Positions 4,278 through 42,109 of a stretch of DNA of 64,000 nt are shown piece after piece; position 1 is the stretch's first letter, and every line of letters begins with the position of its first letter. Made by a program: the position numbers and the translations under genes. The notes beneath the pieces were generated by a model that saw only the letters and a list, made by a program, of their open reading frames with translations, was not told the DNA's origin and did no database searches. The stretch covers positions 721,297 to 785,296 of the forward strand of contig JAUJMU010000001.1 of the NCBI GenBank assembly GCA_030446715.1, given 5' to 3'. This DNA comes from Cytophagales bacterium (lineage in GTDB: Bacteria > Bacteroidota > Bacteroidia > Cytophagales > 172606-1).

Positions 4278-4310
4278 TTTGATTACGAAATATTTCGTAG
4301 ATAAAATTTG
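4278..4310 (+). promoter_or_regulatory. Probable promoter of the BlaI/BlaR1-type operon
   Basis: TTTG at 4278-4281 is separated by 20 bp from TAAAATTTG at 4302-4310, which resembles the Bacteroidota -33/-7 pair with one extra base in the -7 spacer. The first operator palindrome lies between the two elements and the second overlaps the predicted start of transcription. That is the geometry expected for repression by steric block. The assignment is inference from pattern and context. Confidence 0.5.
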
Positions 4311-4356
4311 TATTTACGAAATGCTTCGTATACTTTTACCTACGAAATATTTCGTA
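4284..4356 (+). promoter_or_regulatory. Three operator palindromes TACGAAATATTTCGTA
   Basis: The 16-bp sequence TACGAAATATTTCGTA, a perfect palindrome, occurs at 4284-4299 and again at 4341-4356. A one-arm variant, TACGAAATGCTTCGTA, sits at 4315-4330. Centre-to-centre spacings are 31 and 26 bp, near three and two and a half helical turns. They lie directly upstream of a BlaI/MecI/CopY-family repressor gene and around its predicted promoter, so they are very probably its autoregulatory operators. Confidence 0.85.
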
Positions 4357-4397
4357 GTTATAAGACACACCAGACTGAAAGGTTTTACTACTCACCT

Positions 4398-4787
4398 ATG
4401 TCAACCTCACCTCCCAAACCCACCGAATCAGAACTGGAAATCCTCCGGATTCTCTGGCGGCACGGTCCATCCACCGTACGTCTGGTGCACGAGGAGCTTT
4501 CCCGTGACAAGGATGCCGGCTACACCACTACCCTGAAGCTCATGCAAATTATGGCAGCGAAGGGACTGGTAAGCCGCGACGAAACAGCCCGGACGCACAT
4601 ATACCAGGCAGCGGTTTCCGAAGCGGATACGCAGAAGCAACTGCTGAACCGCTTTCTGGATACTGCCTTCGGAGGTTCAGCGGCCCGGCTGGTGATGCAG
4701 GCGCTGGGCAATCACGATGCCTCCAAAGAGGAACTGGACGAAATCAGAAAGTTGCTGGATCAGATGGAAAAACGACCCAAACCATGA
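4398..4787 (+). CDS. BlaI/MecI/CopY-family transcriptional repressor
   Basis: This 129-aa dimeric winged-helix repressor belongs to the family that controls genes cleaved or sensed by BlaR1-type membrane proteases. The sequence PTESELEILRILWRHGPSTVRLVHEEL and the recognition region GYTTTLKLMQIMAAKGLVSRDE match the family's DNA-binding domain. The C-terminal half supplies the dimerisation helices (LLNRFLDTAFGGSAARLVMQAL). An upstream in-frame start at 4308 is rejected because it would overlap the operators; ATG 4398 follows them. The stop overlaps the start of the downstream sensor gene (ATGA), so the two are translationally coupled. In this family, induction follows proteolysis of the repressor when the BlaR1 partner is activated. 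Confidence 0.92.
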   Translation: MSTSPPKPTESELEILRILWRHGPSTVRLVHEELSRDKDAGYTTTLKLMQIMAAKGLVSRDETARTHIYQAAVSEADTQKQLLNRFLDTAFGGSAARLVMQALGNHDASKEELDEIRKLLDQMEKRPKP

Positions 4788-6853
4788 ACCACCTCACCAA
4801 CTTACTTCCCGACAGCTTTGTGACGGCCCTGGGCTGGACGCTGCTGCACTCCCTGTGGCAGGGAGCAGTTATTGCCTTACTGACCGGACTCGCACTGGTG
4901 CTGCTGAGGAAATACCCGGCCGCGGTGCGGTATCTGGTTACCCTTACGGCCCTGTGCGCTACGCTGTCAGTGGCCATATTCACCTTCCTGCGCTACTATC
5001 CGGCTCCCGGTCGTGCAGGTCAGCTGGCATCAGCAATGGCCGGCAGCCCGGAAATTTCTGTGATAGCCACCGCGGAAGCATCCGAAACGAAATATCTGAC
5101 GACTGTTGTGGCCCAGTTTACCGGCTATTTTGCCAATCACTTCCCCCTGCTGGTGACGGCGTGGGCAGTTGGTGTGCTGGTGCTGCTGCTCCGGTTTGCC
5201 GGAGGGGTTGCCCTTGTTCAGCGCCTGAAAAGCTATCAGACTGGTCCGGCAGCAGGGCAGTGGCAGGAGAAGGCGGATGGCATGGCCCGGCGCATGGGCT
5301 TACATAAAACGGTAAGGCTGCTGGAGTCGGGGCTGGCAAAGGTACCCATGACCATCGGTTACCTGAAACCCGTAATTCTGCTGCCCGCCGGCACCCTCAC
5401 CGGACTGCCACCGGCGCAGCTGGAAGCGATACTGGCCCACGAACTGGCCCACATCTGCCGGCACGATTACCTGGCCAATCTTCTGCAGTCTCTGATCGAA
5501 ATCCTGCTGTTCTTCAATCCGGCCGTGTGGTGGCTTTCGGCCCGGGTGCGCGAGGAACGTGAGCATTGCTGTGATGACATGGCAGTTTCTGTTTGCGGTG
5601 ATTCTCTGACGTTTGCCCTTGCCCTTGTGCACCTGCAGAATTGGTACACGAATCCGGGTGCGCCAGCCGGTGCACTGGCCGTAACGGGTACCAGGGGCAT
5701 GCTGCTGGGACGGATAAAGCGCCTGATGGACCAGCCCCGGCGTAGTCCCGGTTTCATAGAAGGGTTTATTGTCGCCGGGGTGTTGCTGCTTGGAATTGCC
5801 ACTGTGTCGGTAAGTGCTTCGGCCAGCCTTAATGGGGTGAGCCGGCAGGAGAAGCAGACTGCTTCGGCTGCTCCCTTGTTTGTGGAAGCGGAAGCACCAC
5901 TGGTGGAAGAGGCCGGAGAACGTTCAGCGTTGCATCTGCAGTGGAGCGACTCCACAAACCGCCGTCCGGATGTGGTGATTGTGCAGGACAAGAAAGGTAA
6001 AATCACTGAACTATACGTGGATGGCCGCCAGATCAGGCAAAAGGACATTAAAAACTATCAGGGGCGCATTGACGAAGCCTTGGCGGAAAGGAAAAAGGCC
6101 CGTTATTCTGACAACCCGGATCAGGACATCCAGACGGCGCTTCACCGGATTGAAAAGAACAGGATAGAAGAGAGAAGGGAGATATACGAAAGCCTGGGTG
6201 ATTATGCGCCTCCCATGCCTTCCGTTCCTCCCCTGCCCGGCTTACCGGCTCCTCCCGCACCACCAATGGCGGCAATGCCACCCATGCCGCCCCTGATAGA
6301 AGGGGACGAGGCCCGCATAGAATGGACAAATGAGGACACACCGGAAAAAATCCTGAAAGAACTGAACCGGATGCAGAAGGAATTACACGAGACCCAACGG
6401 AAAGCCATTGAACAATCCCGCCTGAAGGAGGAATTATCAGGGCAGCTGAACGGGGAAAGGCAGCGTGAACTCCACCAGCAGCTGGAAGAAATGCTGAAAA
6501 TCCAGCAGGTGAAGCATGATTCCATCATGCGCGAACACGCCCGGCGCATGAGCGGGCACGAAGCCAGCATGAAGGCTCACGAAGCCGAGATGAAGAAACA
6601 TGCGATCCGGATGGAGAAGCACGCAGCTTTCATGAAGACAATCGGAAACCAGCTCGTAAAAGATGGCCTCGCAAAAGCGGGACAGAAGATAGATTTCCGG
6701 ATGGAAAACGGCCAGCTGCACATCAACGATCAGCTGCAGCCGGCAGAAGTATTCCGTAAATACCAGCAACTGATCCGGGAGGAGGAGAGGAAATCCGGTG
6801 AGAAGATGACTGAAGATAAAGACATCCGCTTCCACCTGAAGCTGAACAACTGA
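4784..6853 (+). CDS. BlaR1-type M56 membrane metallopeptidase with long proline-rich and coiled-coil tail
   Basis: A 689-aa protein. N-terminal membrane helices at about 12-70 and 115-145 flank a zinc protease domain with HELAH at 219-223 and a downstream EREHCCDD segment. This is the M56 (BlaR1/MecR1) arrangement, in which a sensed signal activates self-cleavage and loss of the BlaI-type repressor encoded just upstream with an ATGA overlap. A further membrane helix lies near residues 325-350. Instead of a penicillin-binding sensor domain, the extracytoplasmic part has a Pro/Met-rich stretch (about 475-505) and then roughly 170 residues of charged, His/Met/Glu-rich coiled coil. The inducing signal is therefore unlikely to be a beta-lactam sensed by a PBP-like domain; what it is cannot be read from sequence. 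Confidence 0.88.
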   Translation: MNHLTNLLPDSFVTALGWTLLHSLWQGAVIALLTGLALVLLRKYPAAVRYLVTLTALCATLSVAIFTFLRYYPAPGRAGQLASAMAGSPEISVIATAEASETKYLTTVVAQFTGYFANHFPLLVTAWAVGVLVLLLRFAGGVALVQRLKSYQTGPAAGQWQEKADGMARRMGLHKTVRLLESGLAKVPMTIGYLKPVILLPAGTLTGLPPAQLEAILAHELAHICRHDYLANLLQSLIEILLFFNPAVWWLSARVREEREHCCDDMAVSVCGDSLTFALALVHLQNWYTNPGAPAGALAVTGTRGMLLGRIKRLMDQPRRSPGFIEGFIVAGVLLLGIATVSVSASASLNGVSRQEKQTASAAPLFVEAEAPLVEEAGERSALHLQWSDSTNRRPDVVIVQDKKGKITELYVDGRQIRQKDIKNYQGRIDEALAERKKARYSDNPDQDIQTALHRIEKNRIEERREIYESLGDYAPPMPSVPPLPGLPAPPAPPMAAMPPMPPLIEGDEARIEWTNEDTPEKILKELNRMQKELHETQRKAIEQSRLKEELSGQLNGERQRELHQQLEEMLKIQQVKHDSIMREHARRMSGHEASMKAHEAEMKKHAIRMEKHAAFMKTIGNQLVKDGLAKAGQKIDFRMENGQLHINDQLQPAEVFRKYQQLIREEERKSGEKMTEDKDIRFHLKLNN

Positions 6854-23285: not shown

Positions 23286-23855
23286 ATGAATGAAATAGAA
23301 GAAGCCATTGAGCAGGTACTTGGCAAGGGTGGCTCAGACCTTGGGTTAGGACAGATACTGATCAGAGCGGTGATCATTTACCTGGTGGCACTGATAATTA
23401 TCCGGCTCGGAAAGAAGCGGTTGCTGGGACGCAGTTCCGTGTTTGATGTCATACTGGGCGTGATCATCGGTTCGATGTTCAGCCGGACCATCCACAGCGA
23501 TGTGCCCTTTCTGGGCAGCATACTGGCTACCACGGTACTGGTGCTGCTGCACGGAATCTTTTCTTCGCTGGCGTTCAGGATAAAGAGCTTCGGCCCCCTG
23601 GTGAAAGGACACGCCGGGGAACTGGTAATGGACGGCGAAATCAAGTGGGATGCCATGCGCAAACATGACATGAGTCAAAAGGATCTGGAGGAAGCTATGC
23701 GGCTACAGATCAACTCGATGGACCTGTCGGCAGTAGAGTCAGCCACACTGGAACGCAACGGCAATATCAGTTTTATCACCAAAAGCAGGGAGCCCCGCAT
23801 TATTGAGATCGAAGTAAAGGAAGGTGTACAGCGGATACGGCTCGAAATCAGTTAA
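23286..23855 (+). CDS. DUF421 (YetF-like) membrane protein
   Basis: A 189-aa protein with about three membrane helices in residues 20-100 and a C-terminal soluble YetF-type domain. KKRLLGRSSVFDVILGVIIGSMFSRTI is the hallmark segment around helix 2, and the soluble part contains LVKGHAGELVMDGEIKWDAMRKHDMSQKDLEEAMR. Proteins of this family are poorly characterised and have been linked to spore or stress physiology in Bacillus. The MFS gene follows 25 bp later, so they may share a transcript. Confidence 0.88.
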   Translation: MNEIEEAIEQVLGKGGSDLGLGQILIRAVIIYLVALIIIRLGKKRLLGRSSVFDVILGVIIGSMFSRTIHSDVPFLGSILATTVLVLLHGIFSSLAFRIKSFGPLVKGHAGELVMDGEIKWDAMRKHDMSQKDLEEAMRLQINSMDLSAVESATLERNGNISFITKSREPRIIEIEVKEGVQRIRLEIS

Positions 23856-23880
23856 GCAGCCACCGCATAGCATTAAACCA

Positions 23881-25116
23881 ATGAACCATCTGCAATCCAC
23901 TTTAGAAAATTCTGCCATACAGCTGACCCCGTCCCGGGAACGGCTGCTGCTGCTCACGCTGGGCGTGATCCAGTTTACCCACGTGATGGATTTTGTGGTC
24001 ATGATGCCGCTGGGCGACCAGCTCCGGAAGGCCTTCTCCATCAATGCCCCGCAATTCGGGTTGCTGGTATCGGCCTACACGTTCAGTGCGGGTATCTGCG
24101 GCTTTCTCGGGTCTTTTTTCATTGACCGCTTCGACCGCAAAAACGCGTTGCTCACGCTGTACGCCGGGTTTATACTGGGTACTTTCAGCTGCGCCATTGC
24201 CCCTACTTACCCCATTCTGATGACGGCGCGTATTCTCACCGGCGCGTTCGGTGGCATGCTGGGTGCCCTGGTGCTGGTGATCATCGGCGATGCTATTCCG
24301 TTTGAGCGGCGGGGCCGGGCCATGGGAGCCGTGATGTCGGCATTTTCGTTTGCCTCCAGCATCGGGGTGCCGCTGGCCCTGTATATCTCCGATCCGCGGC
24401 GGCTCAACTGGCACGGACCTTTCTTTGTGCTGGCGGGGCTCAGCCTTGTGTTTCTGCTGATAGCTATCCGGGTAATCCCCCGTATCAACGGGCACCTGAA
24501 CGGGGAGCGCAAAGATCCCATGGCGGCCATCAAAACAATTATCCGCAATCCGAGCCAGCAGTGGGCGCTGCTTCTGATGGCCGTGCTGATGCTGTCAGCG
24601 TTTGCGATCATCCCTTACCTTGCCATCTTTGTGGTTTCCAACGTCGGCTTTCAGCAGTCAGAACTCTTTTACGTATATCTCACGGGCGGCACGGTCGGCT
24701 TCTTTGCCTCTCTGCTGGCCGGGCGACTGGCCGACCGGTTTGGCAGTACGCGGGTTTTCACGGTTTCGTGCGTGCTGGCCATTATTCCGATGCTGATCAT
24801 TACCAATCTGGGGGAAACGCCGATTCCGGCTACCCTGCTGGTGTTTGCTTTCTTTTTCATTTTCAACAACGCCCGGATGGTACCGGCCACTACCCTGGTG
24901 ACCTCCAGCGTGGCGCCGCAGACCCGGGCCGGGTTTATGAGTATAAACGCAGCCCTGCGTGACGTTACTGCCGGCTGTGCTTCCTTTATCGGCGGAATGA
25001 TCATTGCCGAAGGGGAAGGCGGCAAAATCCTGCATTTCGGCTGGGTAGGCGCTTTTGCGGCCGTCACTGCGCTGAGCTGTGTGTGGATTGTCCGGAACAT
25101 CAGGCAGATTTCCTGA
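23881..25116 (+). CDS. MFS transporter, DHA1-type efflux carrier
   Basis: A 411-aa protein with about 12 membrane helices. LGVIQFTHVMDFVVMMPLGDQLRKAF in helix 1, FFIDRFDRKNALLTLYAGF between helices 2 and 3, and GDAIPFERRGRAMGAVMSAFS after helix 4 match the AraJ/arabinose-efflux branch of drug:H+ antiporters. The frame is open from 23824, but ATG 23881 is preferred; the earlier start overlaps the DUF421 stop. The substrate is not identifiable. Confidence 0.85.
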   Translation: MNHLQSTLENSAIQLTPSRERLLLLTLGVIQFTHVMDFVVMMPLGDQLRKAFSINAPQFGLLVSAYTFSAGICGFLGSFFIDRFDRKNALLTLYAGFILGTFSCAIAPTYPILMTARILTGAFGGMLGALVLVIIGDAIPFERRGRAMGAVMSAFSFASSIGVPLALYISDPRRLNWHGPFFVLAGLSLVFLLIAIRVIPRINGHLNGERKDPMAAIKTIIRNPSQQWALLLMAVLMLSAFAIIPYLAIFVVSNVGFQQSELFYVYLTGGTVGFFASLLAGRLADRFGSTRVFTVSCVLAIIPMLIITNLGETPIPATLLVFAFFFIFNNARMVPATTLVTSSVAPQTRAGFMSINAALRDVTAGCASFIGGMIIAEGEGGKILHFGWVGAFAAVTALSCVWIVRNIRQIS

Positions 25117-25187: not shown

Positions 25188-26702
25188 ATGGATATGATTT
25201 TTGAGCAAATCAGCAGCCAGGATTATATGCCGCACGGGCATTGTTACTTCTGGGAGCCGTATATTCTGTGGTCGCACGCCATCTCCGACGGGATCATTGC
25301 CCTGGCCTACATGGCCATTCCGCTGACGCTGATCTACATTTTCCGCAAGCGTAAAGATTTCAGGTTCATCTGGATCATGGTGCTGTTTGCCGTCTTTATT
25401 TTCGGCTGCGGCATCACGCACGTATTCGACGTAGTCACCATCTGGAATCCCATTTACCGGCTCGACTCCGTAGCCCGCATTGTTACGGCAATGGCTTCCA
25501 TCGGTACGGCCCTGGTGCTGGTAAAGATCACGCCCGATATTCTGGCCATCCCGACGGCAAAGCAGTGGATGGATGTAAACGAGGAGCTGAAAGCGCAGCT
25601 GGCAGCACTGCGCGAAAAAGACCGCACCATCGAGGCATTCAAAGAATTTGAGGCCCTGACCGAAACGCTGCCGCAACTGGTCTGGACCAACCTGGCGGAT
25701 GGCAAGGCCAGATTTTACAACCAGCGGTGGTACCAGTACACCGGCCTTGATTTTGAAGGCTCTATTACCGGGGCATTGCAGAAAGCGGTAGTGCCTGACC
25801 GTTTGCCCGAAATACTGGATGCGTGGGAGCAGGCCCTGCGCCATCAGCAGCCTTTTGAGCGGGAAATGTGCATTGCAAACCGGCAGGGCGAATACCGCTG
25901 GCACCTTGGCCGGGCGGTGCCCGTACAGACGGCTTCACTCACCGGCCTCTGGGTGTGTACCCTCACCGACATCCACGACCAGAAACTACAGACCCGGGTG
26001 CTGGAACAGAAAAACCGCGAACTGGTGCGGACCAACAATGACCTCGATAATTTTATATACACGGCCTCCCACGATCTGAAAGGCCCCGCATCCAACATTG
26101 AAGGCATAGCCGGACAGCTGCAGAAGCGGCTGGGCAACCAGGCCGACGAGACCGGCGAAATGCTGCTGAGCCTGCTGGGGCAGTCGGCCCAGAAGCTGAA
26201 GCACACCATCAATGACCTCACCGAAATTGCCAAGGTGCAGAAGAATATGGAGGAGGAAACGGAGGTAAACTTCTTCAGTGAGGCGCTGGCCGATGTGCAG
26301 CACGACATCGCCCCGGTGATTGAAGCCGCGGGAGCAACGATTACGGCGCAGTTTGAAGCCACCACCATACCTTTTCAGAAGAAAAATCTCCGGAGCATTT
26401 TCTACAACCTGCTTACCAACGCCATTAAATACCAGTCACCCCACCGGCCGCCGGTGATTCGCATTGAAACCCGCACCGAAGAAAAGTACATCCGCCTGAC
26501 CGTGGAGGATAACGGCCTCGGCATCCGGGAGCAGCACCAGGAAAAGCTTTTCCGGATGTTCAAGCGGTTTCATACCCACGTAGAAGGGACTGGCATCGGT
26601 CTGTACATCGTGAAGCGGATTGTGGAGAACAATAACGGAAGGATAGAAGTAGAAAGTGAAGAAGGCCGGGGAACTGCTTTCCATATTTACTTCCCGCTTT
26701 AA
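25188..26702 (+). CDS. Sensor histidine kinase with ethylene-receptor-like membrane domain, PAS, HisKA and HATPase
   Basis: A 504-aa protein. Residues 28-125 align with the ethylene-binding domain of plant ETR1. ISDGIIALAYMAIPLTLIYIF, FGCGITHVFDVV and VTAMASIGTALVLVKITPDIL contain equivalents of ETR1 Asp25 (D34), Tyr32 (Y41), Pro36 (P45) and the copper ligands Cys65 (C74) and His69 (H78), all at identical spacing. A PAS/PAC segment follows at about 150-265. HisKA has the phosphoacceptor in TASHDLKGPASN, and the HATPase_c domain shows LLTNAIKY, VEDNGLGI and GTGIGLYIVKRIV. The output partner is not adjacent. Whether it binds Cu and ethylene or another small ligand is not shown. Confidence 0.9.
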   Translation: MDMIFEQISSQDYMPHGHCYFWEPYILWSHAISDGIIALAYMAIPLTLIYIFRKRKDFRFIWIMVLFAVFIFGCGITHVFDVVTIWNPIYRLDSVARIVTAMASIGTALVLVKITPDILAIPTAKQWMDVNEELKAQLAALREKDRTIEAFKEFEALTETLPQLVWTNLADGKARFYNQRWYQYTGLDFEGSITGALQKAVVPDRLPEILDAWEQALRHQQPFEREMCIANRQGEYRWHLGRAVPVQTASLTGLWVCTLTDIHDQKLQTRVLEQKNRELVRTNNDLDNFIYTASHDLKGPASNIEGIAGQLQKRLGNQADETGEMLLSLLGQSAQKLKHTINDLTEIAKVQKNMEEETEVNFFSEALADVQHDIAPVIEAAGATITAQFEATTIPFQKKNLRSIFYNLLTNAIKYQSPHRPPVIRIETRTEEKYIRLTVEDNGLGIREQHQEKLFRMFKRFHTHVEGTGIGLYIVKRIVENNNGRIEVESEEGRGTAFHIYFPL

Positions 26703-41029: not shown

Positions 41030-42109
41030 CTACCGCCGGAGGTAAACCCGGAAAGTAGAACCTGCATCTGCCTGGCTTTCCACTTCGATCCGGCCGCCGG
41101 CGTTGTCTACGATCTTTCTGACGATATAAAGGCCAATGCCCGAACCTTCTACGTGGTTGTGCAGGCGCTTGAACATGGTGAAGATTTTGTTTTCTCCGGA
41201 CAGGTCCATGCCCAGTCCGTTGTCCGCAACGGACAACACGAGGTACTCTCCATCCACGCAGCAGGTGATCCGCAGCTTCAGGTGGCGGTGGGGGGAGCGG
41301 TACTTTACGGCGTTGCTCACCAGGTTGTACACGATGCTTTGGAGGTTCTTGCGGGAAAAAGCAATTTCCGGACACTGGCTGACTTCAACTGTCACGCCGG
41401 CGCCTGCTTCCCCGATGCTGTCTTCCATGTCCAGCAGTACGTGCCGGATTACCTCCGGCATGGCTACGGCAGTGATTTCTTCATCCGCCTTGCCTATTTT
41501 GATGATTTCGGTCAGGTCGGCAATGGTGCCCTTGAACCGGCTGATGGCATCCCGCATCAGGTCCACGGCTTTGCCAAATACGGGCTCTTCCGGGTTGTCG
41601 GGCGGTAATTTTTTCACCAGTACCCGCAGCAGCCCTTCGATATTCAGAATAGGCGATTTGAGGTCGTGGGAAGCCGCGTACACAAAGTTATCCAGGTCTG
41701 CATTGACGCGGGTAAGCTGGCCGTTGGCGGCACTCAATTCCTCATTGGCAGCGTACAGCTCCTCGTTGGCGGCGGCAAGCTGTTCATTGACTTGCTGCAG
41801 AGCCAACTGGCTTTCTTCCACTTTCCGGCGGGCTTCTACCTGTCCGGTCACCTCCACTACAATCTGAATAATGCCCGTAATCTCCCCTGCTGTATCCTTC
41901 AGCGGCTGGTACACGGTATTGTAGTAACCGGCAATCAGCTTGCCGTCCCGCTTCAGGGTGGCCGGCATTTCTTTGGCATCGAAAGTAGTGCCGGTGCTGA
42001 ACACATCTCTGAAAATTGCCTCAAACCCCTGACCCTTCACTTCCGGCACGGCTTCAAACACGGGCTTACCCAGCAGTTGGGCGGCTGGCCGGGGGATGGA
42101 TAAGGGCCT
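41030..42109 (-). pseudogene. Histidine kinase, 5'-truncated
   Basis: The reading frame continues upstream of the first usable start to about 42109, where it meets an unrelated gene fragment, so the N-terminus is missing. What remains is the end of a PAS domain (FEAIFRDVFSTGTTFDAKEMPATLKRDGK), a coiled coil rich in NEELYAANEELSAANG, HisKA with AASHDLKSPILNIEGL and HATPase_c (NLVSNAVKY, VADNGLGMD, GSGIGLYIVRKIV). It is the same class as the kinase at 25188 but lacks the membrane sensor. The C-terminus is complete. Confidence 0.82.

Follow-up and report, generated by a model that had tools for sequence, protein, structure and literature searches.

A histidine kinase encoded in the 64-kb window (the whole stretch of DNA analysed, from a 6.4 Mb, 98% complete Cytophagales genome) is probably a membrane-bound, copper-dependent ethylene receptor of the AzoEtr1/SynEtr1 type that passes phosphate to an unlinked single-domain regulator. 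While ligand and output are what we infer here, the amino acid sequence shows three predicted membrane helices, all seven residues of the binding site, a PAS domain and a transmitter that is intact (Table 1). An earlier sequence-only reading had recognized an ethylene-receptor-like sensor at residues 28–125, followed by PAS, HisKA and HATPase domains, and had proposed a copper or ethylene sensor. This observation is correct and its interpretation is partly supported by our analysis.

Pfam shifts the borders of the sensor domain to residues 26–121. The profile score of 114.6 bits lies far above the cut-off of 27 and model positions 2–97 of 97 are covered; the profile search did not place the domain in an unrelated family. 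The kinase layout is likewise reproduced by Pfam, with the HisKA match (23.3 bits) slightly under its curated cut-off of 26.9. The transmitter is intact: the ATPase motifs are present and aligned with those of relatives, as is the phospho-acceptor H295 in the motif SHDLKGP (codon 26070–26072), which is invariant across 16 relatives. As the kinase half resembles paralogues from the same genome (55% identity with one of them) and the sensor is common to many phyla, the protein is a domain combination that, judged from these similarities, joins a widespread sensor to a kinase of its own lineage. AlphaFold predicts three confident membrane helices (residues 24–54, 61–86 and 90–119; mean pLDDT 90.7, mostly above 90) in agreement with hydropathy. 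The N-terminal segment contains no lysine or arginine and the loop between helices 1 and 2 contains five, a pattern that fits an outside N-terminus and an inside kinase. A relative of the sensor domain was not found in the PDB, neither by profile nor by fold.

Table 1. Positions of the kinase, its domains and site residues, the upstream neighbour and the phage genes with an ETR1_N domain. Coordinates refer to the window unless a locus is named.
Feature	Coordinates	Strand	Basis or remark
MFS transporter, 71 bases upstream of the kinase	23824..25116	+	same strand
CDS, 504 aa, membrane histidine kinase ETR1_N - PAS - HisKA - HATPase_c	25188..26702	+	ORF from ATG, intact
MPHGHCYFW motif, residues 14–22, bearing C19 (single N-terminal cysteine in bacterial family members)	25227..25253	+	C19 conservation
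ETR1_N ethylene-binding domain (Pfam PF25487), residues 26–121	25263..25550	+	E 2.7e-33
Helix 1 site: D34 (25287-25289), Y41 (25308-25310), I44 (25317-25319), P45 (25320-25322)	25287..25322	+	alignment to ETR1, AzoEtr1
Helix 2 site: I71 (25398-25400), C74 (25407-25409), H78 (25419-25421)	25398..25421	+	57/57 homologues for each
R97, helix 3, at the ETR1 K91 / AzoEtr1 K98 position	25476..25478	+	alignment
PAS_3, residues 176–247	25713..25928	+	Pfam E 4.5e-10
HisKA dimerisation domain, residues 287–351	26046..26240	+	Pfam E 6.5e-5
HATPase_c catalytic domain, residues 399–504; N box, DNGLGI, GTGIGLYIVKRI	26382..26699	+	Pfam E 2.6e-26
Phage ETR1_N genes	L114:4959-5453, L115:4941-5336, L116:4758-5567, L117:706-1062, L121:4947-5816		Pfam

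The sequence-only reading had listed D34, Y41, P45, C74 and H78 as copper/ethylene-site positions. These assignments are right, and together with I44 and I71 they match all seven residues required in ETR1 (D25, Y32, I35, P36, I62, C65 and H69); the block from ETR1 D25 to H69 aligns with the window sensor without a single gap. The same positions follow from AzoEtr1 (L032, public record of A. brasilense Sp7), in which D35, C75, H79 and K98 (numbering of PMC11819568) correspond to D34, C74, H78 and R97 of the window protein, ungapped and with an offset of one. The site residues sit on the first two predicted helices, and C74 and H78 are presumed to be the Cu(I) ligands. R97 on helix 3 occupies the position of ETR1 K91 that has been implicated in receptor output (PMC11819568). 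An arginine at this position is common to most of the Cytophagales clade and also occurs in a few other members, two cyanobacteria included.

Conservation was assessed in 57 diverse family members over 96 columns (residues 24–119). Only 12 of these columns are invariant, and they include five of the seven residues of the site (P = 2.4e-4); conservation of the site in the family is not chance. On helix 1, Y41 and P45 are found in 57/57 homologues, I44 in 56 and D34 in 55. C19 is kept in all 57 motif-found homologues and in 24 of the 31 proteins of a Pfam-based Bacteroidota set. The invariance of the N-terminal MPHG is not evidence because this motif served to find the 57 members. The Pfam-based set, for which no motif was used, retains the complete seven-residue site in 23 of 31 proteins.

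The view that ethylene-binding domains belong to plants and cyanobacteria is too narrow. Family members have been reported in plants, cyanobacteria, proteobacteria and fungi (PMC11819568, PMC10518463, PMC7700396, PMC9603746), putative proteobacterial receptors are listed by reviews (PMC10518463, PMC7700396) and AzoEtr1 is proven in an alphaproteobacterium (PMC11819568). With one degenerate sensor motif we retrieved 440 loci from GTDB genomes, and the top 80 of them, which were named, cover nine phyla (Bacteroidota, Pseudomonadota, Verrucomicrobiota, Acidobacteriota, Myxococcota, Bdellovibrionota, Cyanobacteriota, Eiseniibacteriota and Vulcanimicrobiota/Eremiobacterota), so that the family extends over at least nine bacterial phyla, and plasmid matches add Deinococcus. 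The first family alignment contained no stretch conserved enough for motif scanning. The rarity in this phylum that the sequence-only reading implied is not supported either: of 396 Bacteroidota genomes sampled, 21 (about 5%) contain an ETR1_N match above the Pfam cut-off, as do six of the eight genomes of the window's family and none of 14 control genomes. In the open literature we found no paper, test or ligand data on a Bacteroidota or Cytophagales member; subscription surveys may list some.

In the sensor tree, the window sensor falls in a Cytophagales clade (support 97) that keeps the site. Its nearest named loci are those of uncultured Cytophagales AVDCRST_MAG56 (sensor 84% identical), YX2bin28 and Rhodocytophaga aerolata. 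Recent acquisition from cyanobacteria is not supported since the sensor nests in this clade; the deep forks, which rest on few columns, are unresolved. One long-branched viral row also lies inside the clade, a placement that is unlikely to be meaningful. Some Pfam-positive members have broken sites: L021 lacks the C, L030 the C and H, and L031 the Y and P, with two alignments disagreeing on the C and H of L031. The genomes of L030 and L031 belong to the same genus as the window genome and also bear an intact copy, so such paralogues may be losing the site. L005 and L007 (G184 and G374) encode 1567-aa open frames (1096 aa within the locus) in which ETR1_N is not N-terminal but lies some 500 residues into the protein; they carry N at the ETR1 D25 position and D at the K91 position.

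Small membrane proteins with ETR1_N and without a kinase occur in phages, namely on the four IMG/VR contigs L114–L117 and, among cultured phages, in Maribacter phages Colly_1 and Molly_1 to Molly_5. All five tested proteins scored above the Pfam cut-off and kept the positions C19, Y41, C74 and H78, and none of the five has a PHROGs entry. The best viral structural match of the window sensor is A0A8E4UZR7 (probability 1.00), whose 289 aa equal the length of the Colly_1 protein. The Colly_1 gene (QQO97348.1) is located directly upstream of an N-acetylmuramoyl-L-alanine amidase gene, and in L114 an amidase is found about 1.8 kb upstream of the ETR1_N gene; a role in lysis or in the membrane would be a guess. 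A further L114 gene (5450–6079) overlaps the end of the ETR1_N gene and encodes a weak PAS match, resembling a sensor-PAS kinase that has been split and has no kinase part. Additional viral scans with single phage proteins and AzoEtr1 as queries returned only known loci or copies from Maribacter phages.

The so-called ethylene-binding domain might be an ancient, general-purpose Cu(I) module of membranes that serves kinases like this one, and the stand-alone phage proteins with their identical copper ligands, for signals or tasks other than ethylene; we regard this as unlikely. Alternatively, the C74/H78 site could report membrane Cu(I), with ethylene not being the physiological signal. The metal-site residues are indeed among those conserved, and the stand-alone phage proteins hold the four positions named above and lose others of the seven, so metal ligands can persist without a kinase. 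However, I44, P45 and I71, which are not ligands and are needed for ethylene binding by ETR1, are also kept, a response to ethylene is established for the proven bacterial members (PMC11819568, PMC6682694), and no copper-handling gene was recognized beside the kinase, in a neighbourhood that is itself not conserved. A dedicated copper sensor is thus quite improbable. We are similarly sceptical that the copper site senses another small molecule such as CO, another alkene or the membrane redox state, with ethylene as a surrogate ligand. Distribution over at least nine phyla with diverse output architectures is wider than any obvious ethylene ecology, and the site is incomplete in eight of the 31 Pfam-based Bacteroidota proteins, one of which (L006) is interrupted by an in-frame stop codon, but the site of the window protein is complete and both SynEtr1 and AzoEtr1 bind ethylene (PMC6682694, PMC11819568). 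It is very unlikely that the sensor domain is a membrane anchor only and that the PAS domain, which is real and of a common sensor type, does the sensing, as clade member L037 keeps the sensor without a PAS match and the site is nearly invariant family-wide, indicating that constraint acts on the sensor domain.

ETR1 of Arabidopsis thaliana shares all seven site residues with the window protein and 39 identities over 97 aligned positions. ETR1 differs by its GAF and receiver domains and by its signalling through the CTR1/EIN2 pathway. Plant receptors carry two N-terminal cysteines (PMC6682694), whereas the window protein has the single C19 before the first helix and a PAS instead of a GAF domain, unlike plant-type ETR/ERS proteins. 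Among proven receptors, the nearest to the window protein is AzoEtr1 from Azospirillum brasilense (L032:5962-7539), which binds ethylene and affects biofilm (PMC11819568). AzoEtr1 has 525 aa and the same sensor-PAS-kinase layout, and its sensor is 44% identical to the window sensor, ungapped and with all seven site residues. On the other hand, identity over the full length is 30%, the phylum is a different one, K98 stands in place of R97 and a response regulator of 160 aa is encoded adjacently, which the window kinase lacks. SynEtr1 (slr1212) of Synechocystis PCC 6803 is alike by description in its bacterial ethylene-binding domain, single N-terminal cysteine and histidine kinase signalling (PMC6682694, PMC7700396) but differs by its cyanobacteriochrome light-sensing domain and the putative partner slr1213, while the window protein has only PAS. 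The Cytophagales orthologues L034–L044 (from AVDCRST_MAG56, Rhodocytophaga, Marivirga, Cesiribacter, Nafulsella and Sporocytophaga) belong to the same clade, and most of them have the sensor-PAS-kinase layout, a length of about 500 aa and no regulator beside them. They differ in full-length identity (39–60%) and gene neighbours, and L038 stands out by its greater length and by a regulator encoded next to it. No studies of these orthologues were found in the open literature.

The kinase gene is the last in a same-strand run that also encodes an Fe-S cluster assembly-type protein, a DUF421 protein and the MFS transporter; the following gene lies on the opposite strand. The run including the MFS-kinase pair is kept in the genus-mate AVDCRST_MAG56 but is lost among more distant orthologues, and the neighbours therefore do not point to a partner. 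Specifically, the upstream MFS transporter is not supported as a functional partner because the two genes stay together only inside the genus. Neighbours (DUF421, MFS, ChaN-like and SpoIIE-type) vary between genera and none points to ethylene. An ACC deaminase above the curated cut-off is not present in the window genome, and a sub-threshold match is no evidence since the same search also matches in six control genomes. In favour of a copper-dependent receptor, the genome encodes four P-type ATPases of the class to which copper pumps belong. Elsewhere in the window, a second histidine kinase (41030–42061, minus strand) has HATPase_c as its sole match, and its open reading frame starts without a recognized sensor; it may be truncated or frameshifted. 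At 4308–6853 (plus strand), a BlaI-type repressor is followed by a BlaR1-type M56 peptidase, a common pair.

The sequence-only reading understated the lack of an adjoining response regulator: the genome has 86 receiver-domain matches and none of them lies inside the window. Among 70 complete family loci, 15 have an adjacent receiver and 12 a fused one, while 43 have neither, so that the orphan status of the kinase is ordinary in the family. Clade members near the window protein mostly are sensor-PAS-kinases of about 500 aa without an adjacent regulator. In other Bacteroidota kinases of the family (L088, L095, L105 and L112), and inside the clade in L038, a CheY-like single-domain regulator (130–147 aa) is encoded immediately downstream. 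The window genome contains about 20 single-domain regulators of the L038-neighbour type (30–46% identity), too many candidates to name the partner.

As an ethylene receptor, the window protein would dimerize and hold Cu(I) by C74 and H78 with support from D34. Ethylene released by plants, other microbes or decaying matter would bind to the copper, and the resulting change would travel along helix 3 and its extension and onward through the PAS domain to alter autophosphorylation of H295, which would decrease if SynEtr1 is followed. The phosphate would then be transferred to a regulator encoded elsewhere, most likely of the CheY-like single-domain type that neighbours related kinases in Cytophagales. 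For the output, surface or biofilm behaviour may reasonably be guessed, solely from the analogy with Synechocystis and Azospirillum. The arginine R97 in place of ETR1 K91 and a gene context without a link to ethylene speak against the receptor reading, and the main sensing role could fall to the PAS domain.

The window protein belongs to a known family that already was wider in bacteria than the frame of plants and cyanobacteria. The breadth of the family and the proven proteobacterial member of the same architecture limit the interest of a further case. Within the open literature searched, bacterial ethylene receptors have been demonstrated to function in cyanobacteria and one alphaproteobacterium (PMC6682694, PMC11819568). 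The window protein adds a testable receptor candidate in a phylum for which we found no demonstrated one in the open literature, and Bacteroidota are common in soil and on roots. Identifying the partner of these mostly stand-alone kinases would show how orphan bacterial ethylene receptors are wired. Since the intact member lies in a clade with cultured genera (Rhodocytophaga, Cesiribacter and Nafulsella), ethylene perception in Bacteroidota becomes directly testable.
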